Assembly: GCA_016929415.1 (NCBI GenBank)
Contig: JAFGIW010000117.1
Coordinates: 1 to 64,000, forward strand
DNA: 64,000 bases
Reading direction: 5' to 3'
Source of the DNA: Chitinispirillaceae bacterium
GTDB taxonomy: Bacteria > Fibrobacterota > Chitinivibrionia > Chitinivibrionales > Chitinispirillaceae
Below are positions 43,168 through 64,000 of this stretch, one piece after another (the first letter of the stretch is position 1; each line of letters starts with the position of its first letter). Made by a program: the position numbers and the translations under genes. The notes under the pieces are model-generated. The model worked only from the letters and a program-made list of their open reading frames with translations. It searched no databases and had not been told where the DNA came from.

Positions 43168-43792
43168 CTACCCGACGCCCTTCAATACGGACCCTTCCAT
43201 TGCCGACAGCCTCTACAGCCCGCCAGTAATTCGCATGCTCTGCCTTGAGTACCCTCGCCGCCAGTTTTTCCGGGGTATCGCCGTCCCTTACCGGAACTGC
43301 CTTCTGCAGGACGATCGGCCCGTGATCATACTCATCATCTGCAAAATGAACGGTTATTCCGCTGATCTTCGCCCCGTAATCAAGAACCGCCCGGTGCACC
43401 CGCTCGCCGTACATTCCCTTGCCCCCGAATGCGGGAAGCAGGCCGGGGTGGATGTTGAGGATGCGGTTTCGAAAAGCGTGTACGACGGGGGGGGGGAGTC
43501 TTTTCATGTAGCCCGCACAAACGATCAGCTCGACGCCGTACTGTTGCAGGTGCTGTTGCAGCGATTCGATATAACGTTTTTCCGTCTGAAAATGCGAAGG
43601 TGCGCAATGTACCACCGGGATACTGCTCTTTTTCGCACGCGCAACCGCCCCTGCGCCGCTGTTATTGACGACAAGAACGGTGATGTCAACGTGGAGGTCA
43701 CCCGCCTCTTTTCGATCGAGTAATGCCTGGAAGTTGCTGCCCCCGCCCGAAGCGAACACGGCGCATCGCATTTCAGTTCCCCTGTTCGGCAT
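43154..43792 (-). CDS. purN: Phosphoribosylglycinamide formyltransferase
   Basis: [40 protein letters not shown]. Confidence 0.95.
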
Positions 43793-45011
43793 CTCCCGGA
43801 CGTTCGATCCGGGCCACGTCGCCGTTGAATGCCAGTTGATATTTTATCCCCGCCCAGGTGATTGTATTGGTCAATGCAGTAAGGCAGTAACTGACGCCAT
43901 GAGTCAATCGCAGAAACGGCCAGTAAAAAATGAATTTTCCCCGCGAGTAGGTCGATCCCAAAAACGGATAGAGTGCGATCGTGATCAGCTCGCCGATATA
44001 GAACAATGTCGCGGCGCCTCCTCCGGCTGCAAGAAAAGACTTATCCGACGACAGCGCAACAACCGCTGCAAAGGGCAGAAGTACAATAAGAAACATCCCC
44101 GAAATAACTACCGGAAAACCAATAAAAAACCAGATTTTTCTCTGATAGGCTTTCAAATACATGATCTGGCGTTCAAACCAGTTGATGGTCCCCCGTACGG
44201 TCTGAAGCAGATCATCCGTCTGAGTGACACATGGTGGAACGACAACCGCTTTTCGTCGTGCTTTCAACACCAGGTGGGACAGACACATATCGTCAACCCC
44301 GGCATGCGACCATTTTTCCGCGACACCCAACTCTTCAAAATCCTTCCGCCGGATGGCCATCGAGCCGCCCCACAATCCGACCCCGCCGATGAAACATGCC
44401 GCGGAAAAAAGGACATAAATGACAATATTAACATATGAATGAGCGAGTTCTCCCAGAGTGCCTTTTCGTGCATGGAGCCACCTGAAACCGCTGGTAGCGG
44501 TTATGCCGGGATCCGCCAGCGGCAAAACCAGTTCCCTCAACCACGACGGTTCAGGCCTGATATCCGCATCGGCGAAGACATACACCTCGGCATTTTCCGC
44601 TTTTTTCAACCCGGCAAGCAAATTATGGTTCTTCTGGACGCATGCAGTTGATAATCCGGCAACTGCAAGCCTTGCCCGCTTATTGCCTGCCATAATCCGT
44701 TTTATCACTCCAACTGCTTTATCTTGTTCGCTTTCAACGGCATAGACAACCAGATAATCCGGATAATCCAGATTGAGGAAACCTTGAAGGTTATTCACCA
44801 GATCCTTGGGAATACCCTTGCATGGAACAATTATGGCACAGCGCGGAGTAAAGGGCATTCTGAATCTTTTGCGCAAATAGTGGTCGTACAGGAAGCGTTG
44901 ATAAAAAATGGTAAAAACGGTGATCAAAAAATCGCACGAAACAAAGAGCAACGCAATTATAAACAGTATCCGCGTTATCAGCGAGCTGCCGGTAATTTGA
45001 AGAAAATCCAA
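43773..45011 (-). CDS. Family 2 glycosyltransferase (ceramide-glucosyltransferase/HpnI-like)
   Basis: AIIVPCKGIPKDL, FADADIRPEPSWL, N- and C-terminal TM helices. Confidence 0.8.
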   Translation of the reverse strand: MDFLQITGSSLITRILFIIALLFVSCDFLITVFTIFYQRFLYDHYLRKRFRMPFTPRCAIIVPCKGIPKDLVNNLQGFLNLDYPDYLVVYAVESEQDKAVGVIKRIMAGNKRARLAVAGLSTACVQKNHNLLAGLKKAENAEVYVFADADIRPEPSWLRELVLPLADPGITATSGFRWLHARKGTLGELAHSYVNIVIYVLFSAACFIGGVGLWGGSMAIRRKDFEELGVAEKWSHAGVDDMCLSHLVLKARRKAVVVPPCVTQTDDLLQTVRGTINWFERQIMYLKAYQRKIWFFIGFPVVISGMFLIVLLPFAAVVALSSDKSFLAAGGGAATLFYIGELITIALYPFLGSTYSRGKFIFYWPFLRLTHGVSYCLTALTNTITWAGIKYQLAFNGDVARIERPGDAEQGN

Positions 45012-45249: not shown

Positions 45250-48200
45250 TTATTCTTGTTTTACACCGAGTTTTTCAATCTTGGACCACGCAGCCGTTTC
45301 ACCCTTTGTCGTATACAACACTTTAATATAGGCAAGATAGGTGCCGTTTCCAACAATGCGACCCTGCCTGTTGGTCCCCCCCCATTCCAGCAGACATGTA
45401 TCGGTGGAGGTGATTTCAGGTGGTTTATATACCACATTCCCGACCTTGTCATAGATGGTAAGATTCGTCTTGTAGGTTGTCTCCTCCGCAACCTTCGCTT
45501 TCGCTTTGATCAGGATATAAACCTTGTTTTGCAGACCACCATTCGGGTTAAACGGATTGGGGCCTATCATAATTTTGAGATCGAATGGAGCCCGTTTAAC
45601 CTTAATCGCGACTTTTTTATTTGTCAAAACCCGCTGAACATTGCCGGCCGCATCAATCACATTCGTTTCAGCTATGGCCGGGTCTGCATTTATCCATGCG
45701 GAGTCGTTATTCGCAGGCCGGACAACCGACGGCACCAGTTCTTTTACCATAAAACGACAGCTGGCGACATCCTGCAATTTGACGCTGCTGTCCACCACTG
45801 AATACGCATTACCTAGTATGTCAATAAAAAGCAACGGCTGACCGCCCGTCTGATTGACTGTAGGCGGACTCTTGAGAGGTTCGGAGAATGTCGCAAAGAC
45901 GGTATCGGCAGCAGTAATGCTGTCGCTCAGATACGCTCCGAAGTGATATCGTACTTCTGTCAACACCGGCGCGGCGCCGTCCTCGACCTGTTTGAATTTC
46001 GTTTGATTTGTTTCATAATTGGAGAAAAACACCGTTACATTCATGACTCCAGATGTCTTGTCCTTCAAGACACTGGGGGAAAACAGTCCAGCTATATTTA
46101 CATCGACGGTATCACCCCCCATTCCTACCGGGGTGTAATTTTCCGTTTTTGCGTTGCCCGAATTTCCCTGCCAGCTGAAACTCGTTCCCATAAATCCCAG
46201 GTCGACACCTTTATTAAACGTGAGGCGCACACGATCGACCATCCCGTTGCCGTCATCGTCGTAGTATACCGCGCTGAGGATATCCGGAGCGATCTTCCTC
46301 GAATTCAATACCACCGGCCGGTTGAGCGGATGGGCATGATTGCCGGAGGCGTCAACAGCAGGACCGGCCGGTGTGATTTTCAGGCTGTCCCCCTCTCTCG
46401 GGGCATTCGCACCGAGGTCCGCCACGACCACAATAATGCGCCCAGTGGGGGCTCCCTGCGCATTCTGCTCGGGCTGCGATTGAATCACCTCCAGTGGAAT
46501 CTGTTCTGTGCCCTTGATAAGGGTGAGGCTGAGACCCTGAACTTTGAGATAATCCACCGATTCCGTAAAATCAATAATCATCGTATCGTATCCCGCGGTC
46601 AGCCGTTCGATCAGCAGGCCGGATTTAAGAAGCGGTCCTACGCCATCTTCGATAGTGAAACTAAATTCGACGGTCGGCGCGTCGGGTGTCGCGGGATTCC
46701 ACCAGTATGTTTTACCCAAACCGGCGCCCGATTCGGTATATCGCGTAATCCCTTCGGGAAACGGCTCGGGAAGGGTAACCGTCAAATGAGCGGGATCAGC
46801 GGCATCCTGGGCGATATCCTGTCGTTTGACAACACGGAACTGACTGTTGACGCCCGTGAGACCCGGCCAGTACAGCACTATCGAATCGGGGATATCGGTG
46901 GGTGCAAGGGCGGAGTCGTAATAAATTTCAACCCGGTCGACACTGCCTCTGCCGTTATCGGCAATATAGGTTGCCTGCTTGATCATGGTAAAACAGGCGT
47001 CGAAGTTGATATCCCTCCGCTCCCCGCTGAGGACATTCGGTTCATTTGAAGTAACGGTAATTTGACCGTCGCTTACATTTTTCGAGGTCGCCTGTATCCA
47101 TATCTTCACCTGCCCGGCGACAAGCTGACTTGTTGTGATCCGCTCGGACGAGATTTCCGTCGCGTACGCCGCCACCCCGCCGAGAAAGGTGATGTTGAAT
47201 GAGGTTGTCTTGTCGGCGGACATTGTAGCTCCCCCATCTTTGGAAGCCCGGATGGTGACCGGAACGCGGATTCCCGAACATCCCCTTATCTCCGCCGTAG
47301 GATCATATTTTGCGGTATCACCGTAAAATACGATGAGCTTGTCCAGCTTTGATCCTACCATCAAATAGGCGGTATCGATTTCAGTGGGTTTGATGACGAG
47401 CGTTGCAACCAGCGGGAAAACCATCCCGCTGTCGCCATTGGTCACTATTGCACGAAACGTCGCCAGCCCGGTAGTGTCCGTATCCCTGAGGGAATCGGCG
47501 ATGATGCCGATATCGGGTTTGGTACTGACGCAATTGATTGCATATGCCGAATCGACCCTGTTTCCATACATATCATATGCCTGAACCGTTGCCGCAAAAG
47601 TCTCTCCCTGATTGATGATTTCCGTCATACCTGAAGCGGGTCGTTGAAATGAGATACTGTCCGCCGGACCGGCAAGAACCCTTACTCCCTGGCTGCTTCC
47701 GAGAAACGGGATCACCTTACCTCCACCACTTGGCTCTATCCATCTTCCGGAAACCAGCACATACTCGACGCCGCCCAGCGGCACCCTGGTGAAAACCACA
47801 TCCACATTGGCCGTGGTTGAAATGCCGCCCGGTATACTGGTTACCGGCGCGCCCGCCGGATCGAGCAGGACGAAACGCGACTGCAGTTTGACGTCCGTCG
47901 GATCGATCTTGTTGGTAAAAGGCTGCGAGCCTTTTCTGGCCTTCACATTGAGCACCACCTCCTCACCCGCGCGCACCACGTCTTTTTGCTTCCCCGCCTT
48001 GTCAACAACAAGCACGTCAAGCACGTAATCAAGTTTACGGTAGGGAATAAACCCGACCGCGGTGGTAAAGGGCTGATTGTCGGAACCGATTCCTTCGATG
48101 ATCATTTCGAGAAACGCGAAATCACCCGTTGCGGGAACGGTAACTTCGATCGTGTTCGAACCCAGTATGATTTTTTGCGCCGGTATAGTAATGTCCTTAA

Positions 48201-49749
48201 CATTGGCCGCGGTGATCGCTTTATAGGCGTTTCCGAAACAATCCGATGTGTCGAGCTTGGTGACGATTCCGAAATAAACGATTTTCAGATCCGTCATCGT
48301 ACCTATTCGCGGAGTGACGTTGAAACCGATTTTAGCGGTCGACCCCGTGATTTCCACCGGCACGGTCGGTCTGACCGTGATCACATCCACCGGCCTGCCG
48401 CCGCCCTTCGGAATGGCTCCCAGATCGGCCCGCGAGCCGTCGGGGTCTTTCACTCCCGCATCCGTCCACCCCTTGTCAACAATATATTTATCTACTTCGG
48501 CATTATTCCAGTCGGGTTCGAGGAAATTCGCCGCGGTCGGATTGACCGACAAAAAACTCGTTTCCACCCATCGAACGTCGGCGCTCGAGGGGAAGGGGGT
48601 AATCGACGCACCTTCATCCGAATTGGACGGAACCCTCAGATCGGTGGTGATCGTCGTGTAATCCGCCGTCGGCGCCTGCTGCTGCGCGGCATAGACGCAA
48701 TTGTGCATACGGTTTACGAATATTTTCGACATGTCAAAGGAGGTGGCGAAGGTGGTTGTGCTATTGTTCCAATACTGATCGGGTTCGGCAAAAATATTGT
48801 TGAAAATGAGGTGCTGCCCGCCCGATTTCCAGTTCCCGAGAAATAGCACTGAATTATGCCAGAGTGTATTGTTGTAGATGGCCAGGGGACTTAGCAGATG
48901 ATCTTTAAACATAAAGGCGCCACCCCCCTGGTTGCCCCCCTCCGACGAGGTAATGCCTTTTACCTTGGTTGCCATTGCTGCGGTCGGGTGATGGTTTTCG
49001 TAAATGAGGTTATACCGTATCGTCGATCCCATGTCCCACGAAGATTCAAAAAACATGCCGACGGAATTATCATGAATCCGGCTATGTTCGAGTAAATGGT
49101 TCCCCGTGCGGGCGAAGGCGGAAAAGGGGATGATATTATCCGGATCGATATCGGCAGGATTCGGGTTGCAAAAAACCCCTCCCTCGTTCCGGTCTTTAAA
49201 AAAGATCCCGAAATAAGCATTTGTAATATCACAATCACGTATAACGGTCTCTCCCGAAATCGTGATGACCAACGCCGCATTGCCGTGTTGCATTGCATAC
49301 CGGCCCTCCCAGATCCCATCATTGCCGAACGGATAAACGCCGCCCCCGTCAATCGCGATTCCCACAATATGGACACCCGCCGTTGCGATGAGCCGGAGCG
49401 CCCCATTATAATCGAATGTAATCGTCGAGTCATCCAATGCTTCGGCGGCAGTGGTGGGACCGATATTCAACCTGTCCTGATATTGAATGGTCGGTTTGTT
49501 GGGAGATTGCGGATTTTCAGACCGGAGTATAAGACCTTGATGGAGACTGTCGATCGTCACCTGTTCCTTATAGACCGCGACATCTAAAATCACCACTTCA
49601 TCACCCATGGCAGCGGCATTTACCCCTTCCTGAATCGTTTTAAACTGACCGCGGCCGTCCTGAGAAACAGTAAAAGTAGCGGCAAAAACAGTCTGCATCA
49701 TCAGAATGACTACCAACCCTGCAATTTTTCCGTATTTAATCGTTTGCAT
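45250..49749 (-). CDS. Large secreted right-handed beta-helix protein with Ig/invasin-like domains and FlgD-like C-terminal domain
   Basis: FKTIQEGVNAAAMGDEVVI (pectin-lyase-like start); repeated beta-sandwich segments; C-term TIYDKVGNVVY...WGGTNRQGRIVGNGTYLAYI; RBS aaaggag before ATG 49749. Confidence 0.8.
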   Translation of the reverse strand: MQTIKYGKIAGLVVILMMQTVFAATFTVSQDGRGQFKTIQEGVNAAAMGDEVVILDVAVYKEQVTIDSLHQGLILRSENPQSPNKPTIQYQDRLNIGPTTAAEALDDSTITFDYNGALRLIATAGVHIVGIAIDGGGVYPFGNDGIWEGRYAMQHGNAALVITISGETVIRDCDITNAYFGIFFKDRNEGGVFCNPNPADIDPDNIIPFSAFARTGNHLLEHSRIHDNSVGMFFESSWDMGSTIRYNLIYENHHPTAAMATKVKGITSSEGGNQGGGAFMFKDHLLSPLAIYNNTLWHNSVLFLGNWKSGGQHLIFNNIFAEPDQYWNNSTTTFATSFDMSKIFVNRMHNCVYAAQQQAPTADYTTITTDLRVPSNSDEGASITPFPSSADVRWVETSFLSVNPTAANFLEPDWNNAEVDKYIVDKGWTDAGVKDPDGSRADLGAIPKGGGRPVDVITVRPTVPVEITGSTAKIGFNVTPRIGTMTDLKIVYFGIVTKLDTSDCFGNAYKAITAANVKDITIPAQKIILGSNTIEVTVPATGDFAFLEMIIEGIGSDNQPFTTAVGFIPYRKLDYVLDVLVVDKAGKQKDVVRAGEEVVLNVKARKGSQPFTNKIDPTDVKLQSRFVLLDPAGAPVTSIPGGISTTANVDVVFTRVPLGGVEYVLVSGRWIEPSGGGKVIPFLGSSQGVRVLAGPADSISFQRPASGMTEIINQGETFAATVQAYDMYGNRVDSAYAINCVSTKPDIGIIADSLRDTDTTGLATFRAIVTNGDSGMVFPLVATLVIKPTEIDTAYLMVGSKLDKLIVFYGDTAKYDPTAEIRGCSGIRVPVTIRASKDGGATMSADKTTSFNITFLGGVAAYATEISSERITTSQLVAGQVKIWIQATSKNVSDGQITVTSNEPNVLSGERRDINFDACFTMIKQATYIADNGRGSVDRVEIYYDSALAPTDIPDSIVLYWPGLTGVNSQFRVVKRQDIAQDAADPAHLTVTLPEPFPEGITRYTESGAGLGKTYWWNPATPDAPTVEFSFTIEDGVGPLLKSGLLIERLTAGYDTMIIDFTESVDYLKVQGLSLTLIKGTEQIPLEVIQSQPEQNAQGAPTGRIIVVVADLGANAPREGDSLKITPAGPAVDASGNHAHPLNRPVVLNSRKIAPDILSAVYYDDDGNGMVDRVRLTFNKGVDLGFMGTSFSWQGNSGNAKTENYTPVGMGGDTVDVNIAGLFSPSVLKDKTSGVMNVTVFFSNYETNQTKFKQVEDGAAPVLTEVRYHFGAYLSDSITAADTVFATFSEPLKSPPTVNQTGGQPLLFIDILGNAYSVVDSSVKLQDVASCRFMVKELVPSVVRPANNDSAWINADPAIAETNVIDAAGNVQRVLTNKKVAIKVKRAPFDLKIMIGPNPFNPNGGLQNKVYILIKAKAKVAEETTYKTNLTIYDKVGNVVYKPPEITSTDTCLLEWGGTNRQGRIVGNGTYLAYIKVLYTTKGETAAWSKIEKLGVKQE

Positions 49750-50185
49750 ACGGGCACACTCCTTTAATTTCACAGATTACTCTAACTCTTTAATAATTAG
49801 TTAGTTCCTGAAACTATCCAGTTCAAAACAATATATAAACAACTAAATGATTGAACAATATTCTATCCCAAGACCTGCTAGTACTATAATATTAAATAAT
49901 ATACTATCATAATTAAAAAAGTGCAGAGGAAAAAAATCAATTCTGTATTCTATATTGTGGACCAGTTCTTCAACGATGAATATACACTATGAGAAATATC
50001 GTTCGCCTGATTTTCGATAACTGATTTATCACGTTACCCGATCGCTTCGCCTCACCCCCCCCCACTCATTTTGCTACAAAATCGTTTTATAATAAAACAG
50101 AAAATCAAAATAATCGTCATGTTTTCAAGAAACAAGAATTGCCGGCTCACAAAAGTTCACCTTTCGGCCTTAAATTATGCATTCC

Positions 50186-52053: not shown

Positions 52054-53370
52054 TTAAGTCGGAGGCTTTACATCCTTTTTACCTCTCTCCCTCATCCCGT
52101 CCTCGAACTTCTCCCTCCAGGCCCACAGCCCCGTCCCTGGCGCCGATATATAATAGATTTCCTCGCCATCGGGTATTCGGTTATATCCTTCGGAGAGTGT
52201 TTTCGGGTCATACCGTTTCATCATTTCATTCAACGGCGCATACTTGAATCCGGCTTTCTCGATCTCTTTTCGGTCAAGTCCGCCCGCGCAGTAGGTGATC
52301 GAGAACCGTCCCTCCGACGAACCGTGAATGAGGTGCGCCGCGGCACTGAGATTGTTTTGCAGCCCTTCGTTTTTCTTCACCGCCTTCATGATGGCGGGTG
52401 TGCCCCGGTAGCCGAACGTCCGGATGAGCGCGTCGATCTGCGGGTCTTCGCCGAAGAGCTTCACGCCGGGCGCAAGAACGACAAGCTCCCCGCCGTCGGC
52501 GATGGCCATTCGGGTGCGGTAGATACTCTTGTTGCCGAGCCAGGTGCTTTTGTATTCGAGAGGATCGAGGTATACCACCACTTTTGCAAGCGGTTTTTCG
52601 AGCGCATGAACATTGACCGCACGCGACAGGTGCGCCGCCCGTTGATAGCATTCATCATCGTTTCCGATAAAAAAACCGCGGATTTTCGTCGTCCCGCGTT
52701 CATCCGCTCCGATCACCGTAATCGCATGGATGAGGGGAAGCTTGCCGAGGAACTCTTTACAGGCATAGTTCAATACCTTCCGTACCGGTGAATCAGCCCT
52801 CCCCATGATCCGTTCCATGCCGTAGGCGGCGCCGAGAAAATGAGTGTGGTGAATGTTTTGCGCGCCGCCGAGCCCCACCACGATGTTCTTGCTGTAGCCC
52901 GCCATTCCTGCCACTTCATGCGGCACGACCTGGCTTATGGAAAGGATGCAGTCGAACGACGGATCGAAAAGCGCGCTATTGACTGAAACGGGTATCTCAT
53001 AGGTAACAGCGCCTTCGGATACTGCCTCGACAAAATCAGCGGGAACCGCGCCGACAGGTTTACAGTCACTGCGCCACCGGTGCGGGCTGAAAAGCCGCTT
53101 CGGAAGATTGCCGAACATTGCTCCGATCTCACTGTCGGTCATGGGGAGATGGGTCCCGAGAGCGGGTATGATGGCGCTCACTGAATCTGGAAGCTGTTCG
53201 TAAACGCAGCGTGTGATCTCGCCCGCATGCGAATGCAGGCGCGTGATGTCGGGGGGTACGATGAGCAGACGCCCGGGTTTGCCGAAAGCCGCAAGAGCGG
53301 ATGCAATTCCTTCGCTGAAGTCGGCGGACGAGAGGTCGGCGACGGGTGATCCCTTATGGTAAAAAAGCAT
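52054..53370 (-). CDS. LarA-type (DUF2088, nickel-pincer nucleotide dependent) racemase/epimerase family protein
   Basis: PPDITRLHSHAG, ALGTHLPM, VVPHEVAGMAGYSKNIVVGLGGAQNIHHTHFLG (His/Lys/His cofactor and catalytic positions of LarA). Confidence 0.85.
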   Translation of the reverse strand: MLFYHKGSPVADLSSADFSEGIASALAAFGKPGRLLIVPPDITRLHSHAGEITRCVYEQLPDSVSAIIPALGTHLPMTDSEIGAMFGNLPKRLFSPHRWRSDCKPVGAVPADFVEAVSEGAVTYEIPVSVNSALFDPSFDCILSISQVVPHEVAGMAGYSKNIVVGLGGAQNIHHTHFLGAAYGMERIMGRADSPVRKVLNYACKEFLGKLPLIHAITVIGADERGTTKIRGFFIGNDDECYQRAAHLSRAVNVHALEKPLAKVVVYLDPLEYKSTWLGNKSIYRTRMAIADGGELVVLAPGVKLFGEDPQIDALIRTFGYRGTPAIMKAVKKNEGLQNNLSAAAHLIHGSSEGRFSITYCAGGLDRKEIEKAGFKYAPLNEMMKRYDPKTLSEGYNRIPDGEEIYYISAPGTGLWAWREKFEDGMRERGKKDVKPPT

Positions 53371-53397
53371 ATCGGCTGTTTCCCGTTTATGTAAATG

Positions 53398-54480
53398 TCA
53401 ACGCTGGATGCGTGCCGATCCGCCCCCGGCAAACGTGCGTACCTGTTCCACGGTCGCCATGGTGGTGTCGCCGGGAAAGGTGGTGAGAAGCGCACCGTGG
53501 GCCCAGCCGAGATTTACCGCAGCCTGCGGCGCTTCGCCGGAAAGCAGGCCGTAGAAAAATCCCGACGCGAAACCGTCGCCGCCGCCCACGCGATCGTAGA
53601 CCGCCAGCTCACAGGCGGGGGAGATGAAGGTCTTCCCGTCGATCCAGGCCACGGCGCCCCACGTGTGATGGTTGGTCGAGTGGACTTCGCGAAGGGTGGT
53701 CGCCACCACCTTCACCTGCGGGTATTTGTCGGTTACCTCGCCGATCATGCCGAAAAAAACGCCCGGATCCAGTTTCGATTTCTTCTCCACTTCAGGCCCT
53801 TTCACGCCAAGCCCTTTCTGCAGGTCCTCTTCATTGCCCACGATTACGTCGACATACCTGACGATCTCCGCGTATACCGAGAGCGCCCGTTCGTGGCCGC
53901 CCCAGATGTTCCAGAGCTTTTCGCGGTAGTTAAGATCGAAGGAGACGATCGCCCCCGCCGCTTTCGCGGCCTTCATGGCCTCGATGATCACCCGGCCGGT
54001 CGTTTCGGAAAGCGACGCGAAAATACCGCCGCTGTGGAACCAGCGCACCCCGCCGGCAAAAACGGTCTTCCAGTCGAAGTCGCCGGGCTTGAGCCGGGCC
54101 GCCGCCTCGTTTGAGCGGTTATAAAAAACCACCGGCGGCCGGATGCCCTGGCCGCGGTCGCTGTACACCGTGGCCATGTTGGGGCCGTTGACGCCGTTAT
54201 GCCTGAATCGCTTGTAAAAGGGGGTGACGCCCATTGCCCTGACCCGTTCGGTAATGAGGTCGCCGATGGGATAATCCACCATGGCGGTGACGATGCCGGT
54301 TTTCAGGCGGAAGCAGTCGGAGAGGTTGGCGGCGCAGTTGAACTCGCCTCCGCTTACGTGGATCAGGCATTCGGTAGCCTTGCGAAATGGCATAATCCCC
54401 GGGTCGAGCCGGTGGACGAGCGCCCCGAGCGAGATGAAGTCGAATGCTCCGTTTTGCGGTATGTTTAAACCGAAATTCAT
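53398..54480 (-). CDS. PfkB-family sugar/sugar-acid kinase (KDG-kinase-like or gluconokinase)
   Basis: HVSGGEFNCAANLSDCFRLKTGIVTAM, IVSFDLNYREKLW, DRVGGGDGFASGFFYGLL anion-hole motif. Confidence 0.88.
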   Translation of the reverse strand: MNFGLNIPQNGAFDFISLGALVHRLDPGIMPFRKATECLIHVSGGEFNCAANLSDCFRLKTGIVTAMVDYPIGDLITERVRAMGVTPFYKRFRHNGVNGPNMATVYSDRGQGIRPPVVFYNRSNEAAARLKPGDFDWKTVFAGGVRWFHSGGIFASLSETTGRVIIEAMKAAKAAGAIVSFDLNYREKLWNIWGGHERALSVYAEIVRYVDVIVGNEEDLQKGLGVKGPEVEKKSKLDPGVFFGMIGEVTDKYPQVKVVATTLREVHSTNHHTWGAVAWIDGKTFISPACELAVYDRVGGGDGFASGFFYGLLSGEAPQAAVNLGWAHGALLTTFPGDTTMATVEQVRTFAGGGSARIQR

Positions 54481-54554
54481 TGGATATGCTCCTTACCGTG
54501 AGTTCTTTTCGTTGATCGATACGCTGATGGTTTTTACGACCATCCCCCCTTTCG

Positions 54555-55391
54555 TCACACTCCCGAATAGGCGCTGAATCCGCCGTCAACGGGCAGTACC
54601 GTGCCGGTGATGAATTTCGCCCGTTCCGAGAGCAGGAACAGCGTCGCGTCCTGCAGTTCATCCGGGGTTCCGAATCGCCGCATGGGAGTTGCATCGAGGA
54701 TCTTTCTGCCCCGCTCGCTCAGGGCGCCGGATTCCTTGTCATACAGGAGAAAGCGGTTCTGTTCGGTGAGGAAAAAACCGGGCGCGATGGCATTGACGCG
54801 GATATTGCGCGGCGCGAGGTGCACGGCGAGCCATGCGGTGAAATTGTTGATCGACGCTTTGGCGGCGGAGTAGGCGGGAATCCGCGTGAGAGGCCGGAAA
54901 GAATTCATCGAAGAAATGTTGAGGATCGCTCCTGCCTTCCGTTCAACCATGTCCTTTGCAAAGATCATGGTCGGCAGGATGGTTCCCATGAAATTGAGGT
55001 CAAAGACGGTCCGGAAGCTTTCGAGATCGAGCCCGAAGAATGTCCGTTCGAGGCAATCAATATCGGCATCCTCGCAGAACTCAGCCGCGGTGGTCGCTTT
55101 CGGCGAGTTCCCGCCTGCGCCGTTGATGAGCAGGTGGACCGGCCCGAGGATGTTGTTGACCGCCTTTTTCGCCGTTTCGAGCGCAGCTTTCTGAAGCACG
55201 TTTCCCGCCACGCCCATCACGTTGCCGCCGGTTGACGAAGCGATCTCGCTGGCTTTCCTGACCGCCAGATCGCCGTCGAGATCGACTATCGCCGTGGCAA
55301 CACCCGCCTTTGCAAGCGCTTCGGCAAGCGAAGAGCAGAGTACCCCCGCTCCGCCGGTAATGACGCAGCATTTACCTTTCAAATCATTCAT
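54555..55391 (-). CDS. SDR family oxidoreductase, D-mannonate oxidoreductase (fructuronate reductase) type
   Basis: CCVITGGAGVLCSSLAEALA, LINGAGGNSPKATT, YSAAKAS catalytic Tyr/Lys, resembles SDR-type UxuB. Confidence 0.82.
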   Translation of the reverse strand: MNDLKGKCCVITGGAGVLCSSLAEALAKAGVATAIVDLDGDLAVRKASEIASSTGGNVMGVAGNVLQKAALETAKKAVNNILGPVHLLINGAGGNSPKATTAAEFCEDADIDCLERTFFGLDLESFRTVFDLNFMGTILPTMIFAKDMVERKAGAILNISSMNSFRPLTRIPAYSAAKASINNFTAWLAVHLAPRNIRVNAIAPGFFLTEQNRFLLYDKESGALSERGRKILDATPMRRFGTPDELQDATLFLLSERAKFITGTVLPVDGGFSAYSGV

Positions 55392-55485
55392 GGTTTTTCC
55401 TTGTACATTCGAAGATACACCACCAACCTTCAAACACGACATTTCATAAGGTAGGGGCACCTCGCGAGGCGTCCCTCCACTATCC

Positions 55486-56940
55486 CTACACCGTATACGT
55501 CCCCGACGCCACGTCGCCGCCCCGTCCGGTCCAGTTGGTATGGAATATTTTATCAGCCGGCGCGTCGATGCGTCTGTAGGTGTGCGCGCCGAAATAGTCG
55601 CGCTGCGCCTGCAGCAGGTTCGCGGGCAGACGTTCGCAGCGGTACCCGTCGAAAAACGCCAGCGCCGACGAGAATGCAGGCACCGGAACTCCGAGTTTCA
55701 CCGCCGTGGCGACGACCTTTCTCCAGGATTCCTGGCATTTGTCGATCACCTCCCTGAAATAATCGTCGAGCAGCAGGTTGGAAAGGTCCGGATTGCGGTC
55801 GTACGCCGCCTTGATTTTTTCAAGAAAGACGCTCCGGATGATGCAGCCGCTGCGCCACAGCAGGGCGATATTGCCGTAGTTGAGGGTCCAGCGGTACTCC
55901 TTCGCCGCCTCGCGCAGGCACATGAATCCCTGTGTGTAGGAGACGATTTTCGACGCGAGCAGCGCGCGCCGGATATCCTCGATGAAGGCTGAGACGTCGC
56001 CGGTAAATTTCGATGCCGGCCCCGTGAGTACTTTTGCCGCGGCAACCCGTTCGTCCTTGAGCGCAGAGAGGCAGCGCGCGTAGACCGCCTCGGCGATGAG
56101 CGTGACCGGGATGCCCAGATCGAGCGAGTTGACGCTGAACCATTTCCCGGTCCCCTTCTGCCCCGCCTTGTCAAGAATTTTTTCGACGAGCGGCCCGCCG
56201 CCGTCGTCCTTGAAGGCAAGAATATCGGCGGTGATTTCAATAAGATAACTGTCGAGTTCGGTTTTGTTCCAAGAGGAGAAGATGCCGTGCATTTCGGCGC
56301 ACGAGAGGCCGAGCCCCTGTTTCATTAGGTGGTATGCCTCGCAGATGATCTGCATGTCGCCGTATTCGATGGCATTGTGCGCCATTTTGACGTAGTGGCC
56401 GGCGCCGTTCTCACCCACCCAGTCGCAGCAGGGAACGCCGTCGGGAGTCCTGGCGGCGATTGCCGTGAATATGTCCTTTACAAGAGGCCAAGCCTTCGGG
56501 CTTCCTCCAGGCATCATCGAAGGCCCCATGCGCGCCCCCTCCTCGCCTCCCGAGACGCCGGTGCCGATATAAAAAAATCCCTTCCCTTCGAGGTACTTCG
56601 TCCGCCGTATCGTATCGGTGAAATGCGAATTGCCGCCGTCGATGACGCAGTCCCCCGGCGAGAGGTGCGGCAGCAGTTTCTCGATTTCCTCATCCACCGC
56701 CTCGCCCGCCTTGACCATGAGCATGATCTTCCGGGGCGTCGTGAGGAGCGCAACCATCTCCTCGATCGAACGGGCGCCGATGACCTTCGTCCCCTTCGCG
56801 GCACCTGTCAGAAATTCGTCAACCTTCGAAACGGTCCGGTTGTGCGCAACCACCGTATAGCCGTGGTCGTTCATGTTCAGGATGAGGTTCTGACCCATGA
56901 CGGCGAGACCGATTACCGCGATGTCACCTTGTTTTTCCAT
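55486..56940 (-). CDS. gnd: 6-phosphogluconate dehydrogenase, decarboxylating
   Basis: IAVIGLAVMGQNLILNMNDHGYTVVAHNRT, GVSGGEEGARMGPSMMPGG, HNAIEYGDMQ. Confidence 0.96.
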   Translation of the reverse strand: MEKQGDIAVIGLAVMGQNLILNMNDHGYTVVAHNRTVSKVDEFLTGAAKGTKVIGARSIEEMVALLTTPRKIMLMVKAGEAVDEEIEKLLPHLSPGDCVIDGGNSHFTDTIRRTKYLEGKGFFYIGTGVSGGEEGARMGPSMMPGGSPKAWPLVKDIFTAIAARTPDGVPCCDWVGENGAGHYVKMAHNAIEYGDMQIICEAYHLMKQGLGLSCAEMHGIFSSWNKTELDSYLIEITADILAFKDDGGGPLVEKILDKAGQKGTGKWFSVNSLDLGIPVTLIAEAVYARCLSALKDERVAAAKVLTGPASKFTGDVSAFIEDIRRALLASKIVSYTQGFMCLREAAKEYRWTLNYGNIALLWRSGCIIRSVFLEKIKAAYDRNPDLSNLLLDDYFREVIDKCQESWRKVVATAVKLGVPVPAFSSALAFFDGYRCERLPANLLQAQRDYFGAHTYRRIDAPADKIFHTNWTGRGGDVASGTYTV

Positions 56941-57110
56941 TGAACGATTCCTTTTAGTAAAATGAATCTGAAAGATTGAAGAAGTGTATTTGCCGCATCG
57001 TAGATTCTGTCGTCAAGCCTGCCCGCGCGACCTCATGACAAAATCTGCGAAGGTGAACGCCGCACGCTCTGCTGCACCTTTGCGCGGACTGTTGAAAGCG
57101 GCATGGTGAA

Positions 57111-58361
57111 CTAGAATTTGGACGTCAGCCTCAGTGTCGTCTTCATGTCGCCGGTCGGGTTCCCGGTGTAAACGCCCCAGTCGATGACGACCCGGTCCAG
57201 ATACTTTTTCTGCAGCGTGATTCCCCATCCAAGTGCCTTGGTGGGAGTACGTCCGGAAACCGCGTCGCGCATGCTTTCATCACTGAAAAACGTATTAGCC
57301 ACATTTTCAAACTCAAGGGTCAGCATATCGAGTACACCGAAGGTCGGGATTGTTATTCCCGCGTTGATCGGCCTGACAATACCCGTACTTGATTCCGAAC
57401 TCATCTTCTGTATCGCCATTTCAGTATAGAATTTCAGGTCCTTGATAATGGTGACATCGAAAACCCACTGTCCGGTTAGATAATATGCCTTCATAAAATG
57501 TCCTTCATATGCCGCCGAGTCCTGTACGGACACGTATTTCCTGAAGCCCCCTCCGACATGAAAACGGTTATGCAGAAAATACAGATCCTCATAGAACCGG
57601 TAAAATCCGGCGCTCAATTTCGAATCCTCTAACTGATAAAACTCGGTTGCCATCGCATCATAGAAATTCCGAGAGTTGAGATTTCCACCGATCATGAACT
57701 CCGTCTTACTTCCGACAATATCGAAAATATTGCATTCAAACCCTACTCCTATCTGGTTCGCGAATACTATTCTGTTTTTAAAAGGACCGGTAATATTCAC
57801 ATAACGCGAATCGCCATAGCCGCCCGCGGGCTGATCGAGATAATTACCGAACAGTTGACTGGAATTATTCAACATCCCGTCGCGACCGATTTTAAAGTGA
57901 GGCTGGAATGTCAGGTTACTTTGCGGAGAGTATTTTTTAAAAAATTTGAGATATGCCCGGGCTATTTCAAACGCATCGATATATGATGTCAAATCGTATG
58001 TTCCTGCGCCGGAAATGTTATTATCCCCGATAAAGTTTCGACGCATCGTCCAGTACGGATAAAACCGCAGGTTGAAGACACTTTCGAAATATTTCAGGTT
58101 GCACGCTCCATTCACCCCGACTCTCATCCAGAAATCGTCGAATACCTTCCGGTAATCATGGACCACGGTAGTCGATATCCTGTTTTTGGAATCAGTAGAG
58201 AACTCATCGTAAAGCTGTTTTTCAACCTGCATATCAACGAATGCCGAGAATTTGACCGGGGAGCCCCTTGAGGCGATGGTATCATTTTCTTTTTCCTGAG
58301 CTGCCGCCGGCAGGTATATGACTATCGCTGATATAATGATCGCCAAAAGATATTGTTTCAT
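57111..58361 (-). CDS. Putative outer-membrane porin-like protein
   Basis: Signal peptide, amphipathic beta-strand pattern, C-terminal aromatic (TLRLTSKF). Confidence 0.65.
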   Translation of the reverse strand: MKQYLLAIIISAIVIYLPAAAQEKENDTIASRGSPVKFSAFVDMQVEKQLYDEFSTDSKNRISTTVVHDYRKVFDDFWMRVGVNGACNLKYFESVFNLRFYPYWTMRRNFIGDNNISGAGTYDLTSYIDAFEIARAYLKFFKKYSPQSNLTFQPHFKIGRDGMLNNSSQLFGNYLDQPAGGYGDSRYVNITGPFKNRIVFANQIGVGFECNIFDIVGSKTEFMIGGNLNSRNFYDAMATEFYQLEDSKLSAGFYRFYEDLYFLHNRFHVGGGFRKYVSVQDSAAYEGHFMKAYYLTGQWVFDVTIIKDLKFYTEMAIQKMSSESSTGIVRPINAGITIPTFGVLDMLTLEFENVANTFFSDESMRDAVSGRTPTKALGWGITLQKKYLDRVVIDWGVYTGNPTGDMKTTLRLTSKF

Positions 58362-58378
58362 TTTTTTTCTACTCCCCA

Positions 58379-58999
58379 TTAAAATTTCGCTGCCGCGTTG
58401 AGTGAAAACCAAGCGGACGGTTTTCCACTTGTAAATACCATCGTCACGCCGGGTGAAAATTCAATTACATCCCAGTTTATGCCTATATTGAAACTGGCTC
58501 CGAAATCTTTCTGACCTTCAGTTACCAAGGTGACGCCACCGGACGGAGGCGGAGACGCCGGAACGGTGTCCATGTCGTTGAAACCATGTTCGCCGATGAA
58601 CATGCCGCCGCCGACCTGACCGAAAAATGCAAATCGATTGATTTTTACGGGAAGATAATACCGCACAATACCCTCTGTTCCAAGAAAGGTGCACTCCTGC
58701 ATTGTGGAATCACGTTTCCAGCGGTTGTAACTTATTTTCCCTCCGAACGCCAGCCCCGAAAGTGCGTTTTCGAACTTTGTGAAAGGAAGTCCGAAAAATG
58801 TTAAGCTGCCCTCCCAGCCCATGTTCAGGTTCTTATCCCCGATATGGACAAGTACCCCGGTATCGTTAGGGCCCCAAATAGGTGCCGCGGATGACAACGG
58901 TACCGCCAGACCGACGGAAATCACCGAATAGGTGTTTTTTGCCTGTGAAAAACAGTACAACAACAGGATGCTTGAAACGATAATTCTTGCAGTTTTCAT
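58379..58999 (-). CDS. Small outer-membrane beta-barrel protein
   Basis: Signal peptide, C-terminal NAAAKF, Gly/aromatic strands. Confidence 0.65.
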   Translation of the reverse strand: MKTARIIVSSILLLYCFSQAKNTYSVISVGLAVPLSSAAPIWGPNDTGVLVHIGDKNLNMGWEGSLTFFGLPFTKFENALSGLAFGGKISYNRWKRDSTMQECTFLGTEGIVRYYLPVKINRFAFFGQVGGGMFIGEHGFNDMDTVPASPPPSGGVTLVTEGQKDFGASFNIGINWDVIEFSPGVTMVFTSGKPSAWFSLNAAAKF

Positions 59000-59137
59000 A
59001 GCCGGACCTTTTTACGTTATTGAAAATAGTGGGATAGCGCCCGCTTCCGCGCCGCTATCCCCCATGAGTGCTAATAAATAATTCTATTCACCCGGAAAAA
59101 TCAAGGTATTCAAACGTGCAGACAACCGACCGACCGA

Positions 59138-61843
59138 TCACCTGATGATCAGCTTGCTCTGCAGATTTCGTGTCGGGGTTGTAAGGCGGATCAGATAGAG
59201 CCCGCCCGCCACACCTCGCGTGTCCCAGAAACAGGTTCCCGGTTGTGATAAGGAGATGGACTTGACGATGCGGCCGTTCAGTCCGTAAATGTCGATTTCC
59301 CCCGCAACCGATGCGTTGATCACGATGCTATGGGGCGCCTGAATTATTTTCATTGATAACGGCTCGGACCTCTCCGCAATTTCGGCTTTAGCCCCGGATG
59401 ACGGTTCGACGAAAATCAGTTCGTTCTCGAATTGATTCGGCCACTTCGAGTCCCAGACCTTGACCGTATAGATCCCGGGTACGCTCGCGGAAAAAGTAGT
59501 ACTCGTTCCAGTTGCGGCGCTGAGGGTCGCTCCGGGTTCAACGACACTCCAGTTAAAAGTCTCTCCGGTGACGGCCGTCCCGTCCTGATTCCTCAACCGT
59601 GCCGAAAGATTTACCTCTGCGCCAACCTTCGCCTCCACGGCCTTCGTGGTATCGGGGGTGATGAGGTCCAGATTGCAGGGGACCTGCGTTTTGTAATAAG
59701 CGCCGAAATCCTTTCTGAAGTTGTTCGTCCATCTTGTTCCATCTTTCAACTGATGGTTGAGCTTTGTAAGCACATGGTTATAAATTTCCGCATCGATGAG
59801 AGGATCAGTAAAAGCGGAATTATTAAGCAGCTTCCAGTATTTGATGAATCGCTGCACCTCATGAATACCGTTGAAATGCTCGAACTGAAGCTGCTGTATC
59901 AGGGTCATCCCGCCTTTCATCTTATGCGTCCACCCGTAGTGATGGAAGAAGAGCATATACTCCTCAGGACATTGGGCGGGGTCAGAGAAGATATTGGCCA
60001 AAGCGGAGGTGAGGTATTGATGCGCAAAGTCGTTATGGACGCTGCCGGTAGTAGATTTATTGCAACGCTCGACGCCGATGCCGTTCGAAGTGAAATTCAT
60101 CAACCATTCATTGAAGAAATTGATGTTTTTCATTCCCGAGAAATTTACTTCGTAATGCTCATTATTCCCTATCTGGGACATGGACGCATTGTGTGCGATG
60201 ACATAATTCATGTATGCCGGCCACGAGCGCAGCAGCATGTGCTTCACAACGTGCTGGACGATCGGATGGTTTCCATTGTCAACACTGCACCTGATCCATT
60301 CATCGGCGATCTGGTCGGCGGAAAGGGTCGGGTTCCATGCCAGCCGGCCCCATCCGTAATAGTTCGCCTGGTGGAGGAAATTGGCGGTCCAGTTTACCGT
60401 ATCGCTCAGATTGCTTATTGCCCATACGCCGCCAGTCCTTTTACCGGCCCCCTTTATAAGCTGATGGGTAATCGTGCCGGGCGCCCCAGTCCAGGTGGGA
60501 GCCCCCTTAATGTCCCAGTCCAGAACCTTTTTCCATCTCGGAACGAGCCAGCAGAGATGGATCCCCTGACCGGTATATTCCTGGGTGATCTGAAACTCCA
60601 TCCCCAGACGCGCGCCGGACATTGCGAGCAGCTGGTGGGGGGGTTCGATCGGTTGGAAATCATGCGTTCCGTCCTTCATACGTATAACGACCGCCTCATC
60701 CCATGTCTGGGGCGGCTTTGCAAATTCCTTGCCTTGGTTGACGGCGAAATCCGGGTCTGATGTGCCGTAAATAAACGTACGCCACACTATAATAAGGCCA
60801 TATCGTTTCAGGGCTTCGGCTATCGGATTGGCTCCCTGTGACTGTGTTTCATTATAGGTTGATCGCGGTCCCTCCTCGCCTTCGGAGTCGGCTTTCATCA
60901 AAAACCCGCCGAAATTCTTGATATACGCACGGACGGTATCGACTTTATCGAACCACCACTGTTTTGCGGCCGCGACTTTATAGGCATCGGCGGAGCTCAT
61001 CTTCGGCGTCACCAGCCGGGGGCTGGCATACGAAACCGACAGGTAATATTTAAGACCGTACGTGCCGAGGATATCGGCGAAAATTTTCTCGTTTTTAAGG
61101 TTCGCGACTTCAAGGCATTTATAATTTGCGTTGCTCCCCTTCTGGTAGGTGTTCACGCAATCCGGAGTTATACCGTTGAGCCCCAGGGCGGCGGCCATTC
61201 GGCAATAGTCGATGACCCGTTTCAGGTCGGCGCCCTCCAATTTATCGAAATCCTCCATTCTGTACACCCTGCGGCCGCCGTACAGGCGATCGGCTTCGTA
61301 AGAGGAGTTATAATGGTTGTACCAGTGGTCAAGCACCCGGTAGGAAAAATAGGGGTTTTCGACAGTGTCAAGATTCCCGATGTCCTTCCCCGTCTGCATG
61401 AGCCTGAGGAAAAAGAAGGTGCCGCGCAGGACGCCGACCTGGCTTTTACCGGTGACATAGGTTTTCCCGCCGCTGGTTTTAACAATGAAGCCTTCATCGG
61501 TCACGGCACTGTAATCGATGCCCGCGGACGCCACGGGTGCCGATCCCTGCTCCGCCAGAACGATCGCCCCCGCGCCCTCGGCCACCGGGAGCGTGGATCC
61601 GCCGAGAATTTTGGGCATTGCCAAATCAAGCTCGGCCTTGGCGTTCTTCAAGGTATCGGAAGCGGCGTCGGAAAGAACAATGCTTTTGCAGACGGCCTGA
61701 TAGGAGGCCAGCAAGGCATCCGGCGCCTTGGTGTAATGCAGAAACGTTTCGTTGCCGCTATAGGCAAGCAGGTTCGCGGGTAAAAGCGTGGCGACAACAA
61801 GAAGCCACATTGACGGATCGCGAAAGTTTTTTTTACTGTACAT
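59138..61843 (-). CDS. GH67 alpha-glucuronidase with Ig-like domain and Por-like C-terminal tail
   Basis: GFLMKADSEGEEGP (acid Glu), MKDGTHDFQPIEPP and MEFQITQEYTGQGIHLCWL (base Asp/Glu); tail IDIYGLNGRIVKSIS...GGLYLIRL. Confidence 0.93.
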   Translation of the reverse strand: MYSKKNFRDPSMWLLVVATLLPANLLAYSGNETFLHYTKAPDALLASYQAVCKSIVLSDAASDTLKNAKAELDLAMPKILGGSTLPVAEGAGAIVLAEQGSAPVASAGIDYSAVTDEGFIVKTSGGKTYVTGKSQVGVLRGTFFFLRLMQTGKDIGNLDTVENPYFSYRVLDHWYNHYNSSYEADRLYGGRRVYRMEDFDKLEGADLKRVIDYCRMAAALGLNGITPDCVNTYQKGSNANYKCLEVANLKNEKIFADILGTYGLKYYLSVSYASPRLVTPKMSSADAYKVAAAKQWWFDKVDTVRAYIKNFGGFLMKADSEGEEGPRSTYNETQSQGANPIAEALKRYGLIIVWRTFIYGTSDPDFAVNQGKEFAKPPQTWDEAVVIRMKDGTHDFQPIEPPHQLLAMSGARLGMEFQITQEYTGQGIHLCWLVPRWKKVLDWDIKGAPTWTGAPGTITHQLIKGAGKRTGGVWAISNLSDTVNWTANFLHQANYYGWGRLAWNPTLSADQIADEWIRCSVDNGNHPIVQHVVKHMLLRSWPAYMNYVIAHNASMSQIGNNEHYEVNFSGMKNINFFNEWLMNFTSNGIGVERCNKSTTGSVHNDFAHQYLTSALANIFSDPAQCPEEYMLFFHHYGWTHKMKGGMTLIQQLQFEHFNGIHEVQRFIKYWKLLNNSAFTDPLIDAEIYNHVLTKLNHQLKDGTRWTNNFRKDFGAYYKTQVPCNLDLITPDTTKAVEAKVGAEVNLSARLRNQDGTAVTGETFNWSVVEPGATLSAATGTSTTFSASVPGIYTVKVWDSKWPNQFENELIFVEPSSGAKAEIAERSEPLSMKIIQAPHSIVINASVAGEIDIYGLNGRIVKSISLSQPGTCFWDTRGVAGGLYLIRLTTPTRNLQSKLIIR

Positions 61844-61942
61844 GTCGACTTCCCCCTTTTTGAAATAAGTTATAAAGATAATGTGGGGCACTGCTCATAC
61901 AACGAGAAACCTTTATGGAAAAATATAATAAATAAATTCAGC

Positions 61943-61959
61943 GGGCGCATTATGCGCCC
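61943..61959. other. Perfect hairpin GGGCGCA-TTA-TGCGCCC between the two GH67 genes
   Basis: Direct reading. Confidence 0.6.
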
Positions 61960-62004
61960 ACGCATCTTCCAGGCGTGAAATCGGATTGTACTGTAAGCCT
62001 CTAT

Positions 62005-64000
62005 CTATTGAATAAAAAATTTGCCCCGCAGCGTTTGCGTTTCGTTTTTCACCTGCAATAAATAGAGGCCTCTGGCCGCTCCCGTCTTCCAGACAATTGT
62101 TCCCGCTTTTTTCGTGGGAAACGACTGCACAACACGCCCCTGCAGACTGACGATACTGATTTTTCCCGCAATAGGCGTACCGATCACGAAATGTCGTGGA
62201 CCCTGTATGATTTTTAAAGGCGGCGACTCACGTTTCGCCATTTTGGTTATAACTCCGGTATGAGGAGCATTTACCCAATTTCCGACTAAAATCATCTCCT
62301 CCTCGAATTGATTCGGCCATCTCGAGTCCCGGAGTCTGACCGTATAGATCCCTGAGTCGCTTGCGGAAAAAACAGTACTCTTCCCTGTCGTGGCGGTCAA
62401 AGTCGCTTTCGCTCCGGGTTCAACGATACTCCAATTAAATGTTCCTTCGGCGACGGCCGTCCCGTTCTGGGTCTTCAGCGCCGCCGAGAGATTTACATTC
62501 GCACCTACCTCCACCGTTACGGCTTTATCGGCGTCGGGGGTGACAATGTTAAGATCGCAGGCAACCTGGGTTGAATAGCAGGCCCCGAACTGGCTCCTGA
62601 AGGTGTTCGCCCATTTTGACGCATCGGAGAGCTGGGTATTGAGTTTTGACGATACATGGGAGAAAATCGCCCCGTCAACGGTAGTGGCGGCATTGAGTTC
62701 CTTCCAGTATTTGATGTATTTCTGCACCCGGTGAATGCCGTTGAAATGCTCGAACTGAAGCTGCTGTATCAGCGTCATCCCCCCTTTCATCTTGTAATCC
62801 CATTTAAGGTGATGAAAGAAGAGAATGTAATCCTCGGGACATTTGCTGAGGTCGCAGAAGGAATCGGCGAGAGCGGGCGTATAGTATTTTTTCGCGAAGT
62901 CGTTGCGGACCGTCCCGCCGCTGCCGTTGCAGCGTGCGACGCCGATGCCGCCGCAGTTCTTCGCGAAATCCATGAACCAATCGGTATAAAAATTGATATT
63001 GCGCATATTATTGAAATCTATGGTGTAATGATCATTATTTCCCAGGGCCGGCATCAATGCCGAATGGTCGATCGTATAATCGGTATAGGCCTCCCATGAC
63101 GTGAGCAGCATATGATTCAAAACGGACTTCACTCCGTAATTGTGTCCGTTATCCACGCTGCATTGAATCCATTCATCCGCGATCTCTTCAGCGGAGAGGG
63201 TCGGGTTCCATGCCAGCCGACCCCACCCGTAATAGTTCGCCTGGTGAAGGAAATGGCCCGTCCAGTTTGGGGCATCGCTCAAATTGCTGATCGCCCACAC
63301 TCCGCCGGTTCTCGAACCGGCACCTCTTAAAAGCTGGTGGGTAATTGTTCCCGCCGCTCCATTCCATTTGGGAGCTCCTTTTATGTCCCAATCGAGGATC
63401 TGTTTCCATTTCGGCACCAGCCAGCAGAGATGTTTTTCCTGGCCCGTGTACTCCTGAGTGATCTGGAACTCCATACCAAGCCGGGCCCCGGACATCGAGA
63501 GCAGTTGATGCGGAGGTTCGATCATCTGGAAATCCCGGGGACCGTCCTTCATGCGCACAATTACCGCTTCGTTCCACGTCTGGGGCGGATCAGCAAATTC
63601 CTTGGACTGATTGACGGCGAAATCGGGATCTGAAGTGTCATAAATGAATGTTCGCCATATCATAACAAGCCCGTACCGTCCCAGTGCTTCGGCTATCGGA
63701 TTGGCGCCCTGCGACTGCGTTTCACGATATGTCGAGCGCGGCCCTTCCTCGCCTTCGGAGTCGGCTTTCATCAAAAACCCGCCGAAATTTTTGATATACT
63801 GACGGACCACATCGACTTTGTCGAACCACCACTGCTTTACCTGAGCGTTTTTATAGGCATCTGCGGAACTCATCTTCGGCGACACGATCCGGGGGCTGGC
63901 ATAGGATACCGACAAATAATATTTAAGACCGTAGGTGCCGAGAATATCGGCGAAAACTTTCTGATTTTTAAGGTTCGCCTCTTCAAGACATCTATGGTTG
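62005..64000 (-). CDS. GH67 alpha-glucuronidase, second tandem copy (5' part beyond window end)
   Basis: Same catalytic blocks (MKADSEGEEGP, KDGPRDFQMIEPP, MEFQITQEYTGQ); frame remains open to 64000 (NHRCLEEANLKNQKVFADILGTYGLKYYLSVSYA). Confidence 0.93.
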   Translation of the reverse strand, partial: NHRCLEEANLKNQKVFADILGTYGLKYYLSVSYASPRIVSPKMSSADAYKNAQVKQWWFDKVDVVRQYIKNFGGFLMKADSEGEEGPRSTYRETQSQGANPIAEALGRYGLVMIWRTFIYDTSDPDFAVNQSKEFADPPQTWNEAVIVRMKDGPRDFQMIEPPHQLLSMSGARLGMEFQITQEYTGQEKHLCWLVPKWKQILDWDIKGAPKWNGAAGTITHQLLRGAGSRTGGVWAISNLSDAPNWTGHFLHQANYYGWGRLAWNPTLSAEEIADEWIQCSVDNGHNYGVKSVLNHMLLTSWEAYTDYTIDHSALMPALGNNDHYTIDFNNMRNINFYTDWFMDFAKNCGGIGVARCNGSGGTVRNDFAKKYYTPALADSFCDLSKCPEDYILFFHHLKWDYKMKGGMTLIQQLQFEHFNGIHRVQKYIKYWKELNAATTVDGAIFSHVSSKLNTQLSDASKWANTFRSQFGACYSTQVACDLNIVTPDADKAVTVEVGANVNLSAALKTQNGTAVAEGTFNWSIVEPGAKATLTATTGKSTVFSASDSGIYTVRLRDSRWPNQFEEEMILVGNWVNAPHTGVITKMAKRESPPLKIIQGPRHFVIGTPIAGKISIVSLQGRVVQSFPTKKAGTIVWKTGAARGLYLLQVKNETQTLRGKFFIQ

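Follow-up and report, generated by a model that had tools for sequence, protein, structure and literature searches.

How does a bacterium that takes glucuronate side chains off xylan complete the breakdown of the uronate if neither the dehydratase nor the aldolase of the textbook route accompanies the genes that release it? The question is raised by a run of eight genes in a Chitinispirillaceae bacterium (assembly GCA_016929415.1, contig JAFGIW010000117.1), studied here in a window of 64,000 nucleotides that takes in bases 1-64000 of this contig, which is 73,401 bases long; the genome measures 5.08 Mb, lies in 227 contigs and is 91% complete. All eight open reading frames (ORFs) are on the minus strand and encode, in order, two alpha-glucuronidases of glycoside hydrolase family 67 (GH67a and GH67b), an outer-membrane protein (OMP), a porin-like protein, a decarboxylating 6-phosphogluconate dehydrogenase (Gnd), a short-chain dehydrogenase/reductase (SDR), a PfkB-family kinase and a LarA homologue, an order given by an earlier sequence-only reading of this DNA and confirmed by the ORFs and by Pfam and NCBIfam profiles with curated cut-offs, from which families were assigned throughout. 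We consider it very probable that this glucuronoxylan side-chain run channels uronate to the pentose phosphate pathway, replacing the route through 2-keto-3-deoxygluconate (KDG) and its 6-phosphate (KDPG).

In the proposed route, for which all substrates, activities and flux are predicted, secreted GH67 enzymes would release glucuronate or 4-O-methylglucuronate, whose uptake would probably proceed via the porin and a tripartite ATP-independent periplasmic (TRAP) transporter encoded beside uxaC, and UxaC would convert glucuronate to fructuronate. The SDR (54555..55460, minus strand, with a likely ATG start at 55388) matches adh_short and the fructuronate reductase / D-mannonate oxidoreductase type NF006132 (372 bits, cut-off 281), and would reduce fructuronate to D-mannonate. 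The LarA homologue (52054..53370, minus strand; Lar_N, NF052594) would then act as a nickel-pincer-dependent D-mannonate/D-gluconate 2-epimerase, inverting C2 of D-mannonate to give D-gluconate, which the PfkB-family protein (53398..54480, minus strand; PF00294, no NCBIfam model over its cut-off), as a putative ATP-dependent gluconate 6-kinase, would phosphorylate to 6-phosphogluconate. Finally, Gnd (55486..56940, minus strand; 6PGD, and TIGR00873 with 742 bits against a cut-off of 427) would yield ribulose-5-phosphate, CO2 and NADPH. The genome also carries zwf, for glucose-6-phosphate dehydrogenase, which means that Gnd does not serve uronates alone.

The epimerase step depends on a LarA protein of group 18. 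Against NF052594 (NPN_18_hexonate, 'nickel-dependent putative hexonate epimerase') the window's protein scores 602 bits, with a cut-off of 500, over positions 4-410 of 411, and its nearest solved structure is 4NAR, the Thermotoga GntE2 (E 5e-37). Aligned with 4NAR, the catalytic residues D41, H74, H151 and K281 and the residues R44, K161 and H177 that bind the nickel-pincer nucleotide (NPN) cofactor are intact, and the protein has the hexonate-type E152 and V153 (loop E-V) as well as W277; all ten residues are invariant in 90/90 aligned group-18 proteins. Since larB, larC and larE are all present in the genome, each over its cut-off, as the sequence-only reading had proposed to check, the nickel cofactor can be made. 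That reading had also referred to a gluconate 2-epimerase activity in the LarA superfamily. The activity is real, assayed by Desguin et al. in 2020 (PMC7583248) as conversion of D-mannonate to D-gluconate, but in groups 19 and 20 and not in group 18, for which that paper only hypothesised a hexonate substrate from signatures in common, E-V/S in the loop and W in helix 11. One more GntE was described in 2024, in a study that does not name group 18. Natural substrates in this superfamily are often unlike the first one tested, and with hexonate use by group 18 at the stage of hypothesis, the enzyme could physiologically serve a different hexonate, for example an O-methylated one or altronate, with mannonate as a side substrate. 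We regard this as improbable, because the neighbours UxaC, SDR and UxaE all lead to mannonate and Gnd requires 6-phosphogluconate. A second group-18 paralogue at three loci (L034, L035, L036) is 45-47% identical to the window's LarA, is not adjoined by Gnd and stands with two distant SDR genes; it may perhaps use another hexonate.

The distribution of the textbook enzymes agrees with the proposed route. The sequence-only reading found no mannonate dehydratase or KDPG aldolase in the cluster while LarA and Gnd were present, which holds, and neither of the two was found elsewhere in the genome either. Our survey of the phylum comprised 168 Fibrobacterota genomes, 11 of which have a group-18 LarA over the cut-off. 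Among ten of these that were tested, the window's genome included, none has uxuA (PF03786); across the phylum uxuA is absent from 167 of the 168 genomes, and its sole carrier (G020) is without a group-18 LarA. KDPG aldolase (PF01081) is absent from seven of the same ten, including the window's genome and all six of its family. The isomerase gene uxaC, also named for checking and present in the window's genome, occurs in 11/11 genomes with group-18 LarA vs 18/168 of Fibrobacterota overall. Counted by genus, the link is 7/7 vs 13/41 (hypergeometric p 8e-5, a number to be taken as a guide only, because genera share descent). Three more genomes with uxaC carry a distant LarA (about 170 bits), with an SDR nearby in 3/3, Gnd in 2/3 and uxaC in 2/3.

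The kinase was the weakest step of the scheme as first drawn, and support for it now comes from a sister genome. The cluster of G022, a genome from the window's genus, holds no PfkB; a gluconokinase of the GntK type (TIGR01313, 179 bits, cut-off 114) lies directly upstream of the group-18 LarA instead. Because GntK takes the place of PfkB there, the window's PfkB is most likely a gluconate kinase, a prediction that would fit the genome-wide lack of any TIGR01313 match in the window's genome and wherever a PfkB of the window's type has the cluster place (G000, G021, G002 and G003). An ordinary KDG kinase, with LarA handling a different hexonate in a side reaction unconnected with the route, would be the conventional alternative, and two similarities speak for it: the nearest solved structure to PfkB is the Thermotoga KDG kinase 2AFB, and the best NCBIfam matches are KDG-type models, all below cut-off. 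We nevertheless rejected this candidate as very unlikely, on the absence of uxuA and eda from the genome, on the GntK substitution in G022 and on a tree that places LarA-linked PfkB proteins from many phyla in a single clade (100/97), distinct from the eda-linked ones. The latter are presumed KDG kinases, E. coli KdgK itself sitting on a very long branch with an unsure placement. The two kinds also occur side by side, L068 and L099 holding an eda-linked PfkB plus a second, LarA-linked one, and they differ at the residue after the catalytic Asp, which is Ser in the eda-linked proteins (GDSF) and Gly in the LarA-linked ones (GGGDGF in 46/47). No PfkB-family gluconate kinase was found in the literature searched, where subscription journals were mostly outside coverage.

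The order of epimerase and kinase could also be reversed, the kinase phosphorylating mannonate and LarA then epimerising 6-phosphomannonate to 6-phosphogluconate. Such an order has been measured in cell extracts of Lactobacillus suebicus, where the genes are unknown (PMC6978723), and gene order and content here are equally compatible with it. It appears unlikely to us, given that the GntE enzymes assayed use free D-mannonate (PMC7583248), and that PfkB is replaced in G022 by GntK, while the E. coli gluconate kinase is inactive on mannonate (Cohen 1950, as relayed by PMC6978723).

Conservation of the neighbourhood, a further check that turned out favourably in relatives, extends well beyond the phylum. 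Relatives are encoded in at least 588 GTDB stretches, and we compared 89 loci of group-18 LarA, made up of the best 80 GTDB matches and nine phylum loci, with one sequence counted twice; the counts are lower bounds, many contigs being short. In the same strand run as LarA we found Gnd in at least 64 of the 89, an SDR in at least 61, a LarA-linked PfkB in at least 47, UxaE in at least 18, UxaC in at least 17, and uxuA and eda in at least six each. By NCBI names most of the GTDB loci are from Bacteroidota (51), the others from Ignavibacteriota (8), Planctomycetota (8), Acidobacteriota (3), Verrucomicrobiota (3), Spirochaetota (2) and Calditrichota, Caldisericota and Fibrobacterota (1 each). The set of SDR, PfkB, group-18 LarA and Gnd, often with uxaC or uxaE, is thus common to about nine phyla, and the arrangement is not due to chance. 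Some runs hold nearly the whole route, such as uxaC-SDR-HADx-LarA18-Gnd-PfkB as a single run in G006, or G021, where the SDR-PfkB-LarA18-Gnd run is preceded on its own strand by uxaC and the gene for a TRAP transporter. In the Thermotoga pathway UxaE acts as tagaturonate epimerase; its presence here suggests that galacturonate joins the same route.

Several observations weigh against the proposed route or limit it. The uxaC of the window's genome is a divergent form (267 bits) and lies on another contig, beside the TRAP genes. In a genome that is 91% complete and in 227 contigs one absence is weak evidence, and the weight of the argument rests on the absence pattern across genomes. The hexonate 2-epimerase activity of group-18 LarA is itself a prediction, as is the activity of this PfkB clade, and in other phyla clusters with uxuA (6/89) or eda (6/89) show that the route is not exclusive there. 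Finally, a protein of the haloacid dehalogenase (HAD) type, with its motifs intact, occurs in 15 group-18 LarA runs, nearly always in place of the LarA-linked PfkB (1/15 has both; Fisher p 9e-5, a value that ignores kinship), and the scheme does not explain it; examples are L025:11311-12195, L026:9070-9960, L029:4553-5452 and L067:7106-7999. It may somehow replace the kinase step, or serve another role. We considered it as a hidden kinase and rejected this, as its structure model (predicted local distance difference test, pLDDT, 94) shows the fold of ordinary HAD proteins, its HAD motifs are all intact, and its matches include phosphatases and beta-phosphoglucomutase.

Two further neighbours were seen in these runs. 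A pyrophosphate (PPi)-type phosphofructokinase stands in the run with the HAD-type protein and group-18 LarA at L067, L071, L075, L086, L087 and L108 (NF010675 over cut-off for L108), possibly a candidate sedoheptulose-phosphate kinase for pentose phosphates. A PdxB-like homologue of 4-phosphoerythronate dehydrogenase, at 423 bits just below the cut-off of 434, is present in 29 runs (for example L113:7337-8497), often between LarA and Gnd.

All the genomic tests that the sequence-only reading named came out favourably for its route. The principle of the route has a precedent: in 2012 Rodionova et al. proposed that Thermotoga maritima takes mannonate via gluconate and 6-phosphogluconate to pentose phosphates (as relayed by PMC3750489 and PMC6978723), and the epimerase of that Thermotoga-type route was assayed in 2020 (PMC7583248). 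The T. maritima UxaR regulon gnd-uxaE-uxaD-gntE-gntK has the same chemistry from fructuronate to ribulose-5-phosphate, and here too the SDR (UxaD), a LarA-type epimerase, a kinase and Gnd stand together with UxaC in the genome. Thermotoga, however, uses a group-20 GntE2 and a GntK and retains kdgA-kdgK-uxuB-uxuA, a KDG-route operon co-regulated beside the gluconate route (PMC3750489), whereas the present run has group 18, a PfkB kinase and linkage to GH67, and uxuA and KDPG aldolase were not found in its genome. The assayed GntE D-gluconate 2-epimerases (groups 19 and 20, PMC7583248; LarAH15, PMC11770544) share superfamily, cofactor, catalytic residues, loop E-V/S and the helix 11 W with group 18, which is an NCBIfam equivalog of its own, separate from groups 19 and 20, with a predicted activity. 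The L. suebicus galacturonate pathway (PMC6978723) likewise joins a uronate isomerase route to 6-phosphogluconate, and differs in phosphorylating first, in having no genes assigned and in leading to phosphoketolase.

The genes at the other end of the run connect it to xylan. GH67b (59138..61891, minus strand) matches PF07488, PF07477 and PF03648, the GH67 N, M and C domains all being over their Pfam cut-offs, and is probably secreted with a type IX secretion system (T9SS)-type C-terminal tail, as suggested by TIGR04183 (23.8 bits, cut-off 23). GH67a (62005..64000, minus strand; PF07488, PF07477) has its start 713 bases past the window end (L042:713), and this 5' part begins like a signal peptide. 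GH67 is joined to the run in one genus only (the window, G021 and G022). Between GH67 and Gnd lie the small OMP-like gene (58379..58999, minus strand) and, overlapping it, the porin-like gene (57111..58412, minus strand), which keeps its place beside Gnd in the genus. Both occur at the same place in two same-genus genomes, the former with 58% (L032) and 50% (L033) identity and the latter with 72% and 48%; no Pfam family matched either protein, and the two labels rest on look and position. A promoter and terminator scan gave sites no commoner than in shuffled sequence. At window positions 61941-61961 on the minus strand, between the GH67 genes, a strong 9-pair stem with a weak T tail could reduce readthrough, in a scan that shows no excess over chance. 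Apart from the run, a glycosyltransferase gene (43773-45011) has upstream of it a gene for a 1507-aa protein (45250-49773) whose type IX secretion tail is weak, at 25.8 bits against a cut-off of 27.

The run continues past the window with four corrinoid-methyltransferase genes directly upstream of GH67a and on the same strand (minus; L042:835-4161, that is, contig bases 64835-68161), joined by ATGA overlaps. They encode a corrinoid protein (PF02607 and PF02310, with the DxHxxG motif as GDLHDIGKN), a homocysteine S-methyltransferase (PF02574, GGCCG zinc motif present), a Met_synt_B12-like protein and a methyltransferase of the uroporphyrinogen decarboxylase (URO-D) family (PF01208, 108 bits; on the MtaA/CmuA subfamily model it reaches only 47 of 235 bits). 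A structure model of the last, built from two sequences, had a pLDDT of 46 and was not used. The module bears on a group that the sequence-only reading had left out, the 4-O-methyl ether of xylan glucuronate. By the chemistry of the pathway, the O4 atom of glucuronate ends up as O3 in mannonate, gluconate and 6-phosphogluconate, and Gnd oxidises that C3 hydroxyl; because the methyl ether would block it, the route would need a demethylase. In poplar wood every glucuronate side chain is methylated (PMC3921138).

We hypothesise, tentatively and as something possible rather than probable, that the run encodes a complete anaerobic pathway for 4-O-methylglucuronate, in which the corrinoid protein, the URO-D methyltransferase and the homocysteine methyltransferase would detach the 4-O-methyl group and hand it on to methionine, before mannonate, gluconate (by the nickel epimerase) and Gnd follow. 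The module resembles corrinoid methyltransferases and O-demethylases (MtgC/MtbC, MtaA/CmuA, split MetH) in its DxHxxG corrinoid protein, URO-D methyltransferase, homocysteine methyl acceptor and reactivation-like domain, and is unlike corrinoid O-demethylases in lying inside a GH67/uronate run and in having no pterin-binding methyltransferase gene. The same parts would suit a split methionine synthase fed by lignin methoxyl groups or another donor. G021 has the same four genes (L151, 67-86% identity), also just before GH67, while in G022 the module is not beside GH67, and among the group-18 LarA loci examined none other than those of the window's genome and G021 has it nearby, no genome-wide search having been made; chance adjacency in one genus is the other competing explanation. 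Enzymatic demethylation of methylglucuronate was not found in the literature searched, again with subscription journals mostly outside coverage.

What is new here is a proposed function for group 18, a predicted gluconate kinase of the PfkB family and the apparent use of the route in place of UxuA and KDPG. A large group of nickel-pincer enzymes thereby gains a function that can be tested, and gluconate kinase is predicted within the PfkB family. Should 4-O-methylglucuronate prove to be the substrate of the corrinoid module, this would explain how wood xylan side chains lose their methyl ether under anaerobic conditions. What is known from Thermotoga as a side branch can apparently take over from the textbook route of UxuA and KDPG in organisms that degrade biomass; judged by uxuA and eda alone, these would seem incapable of completing uronate breakdown.

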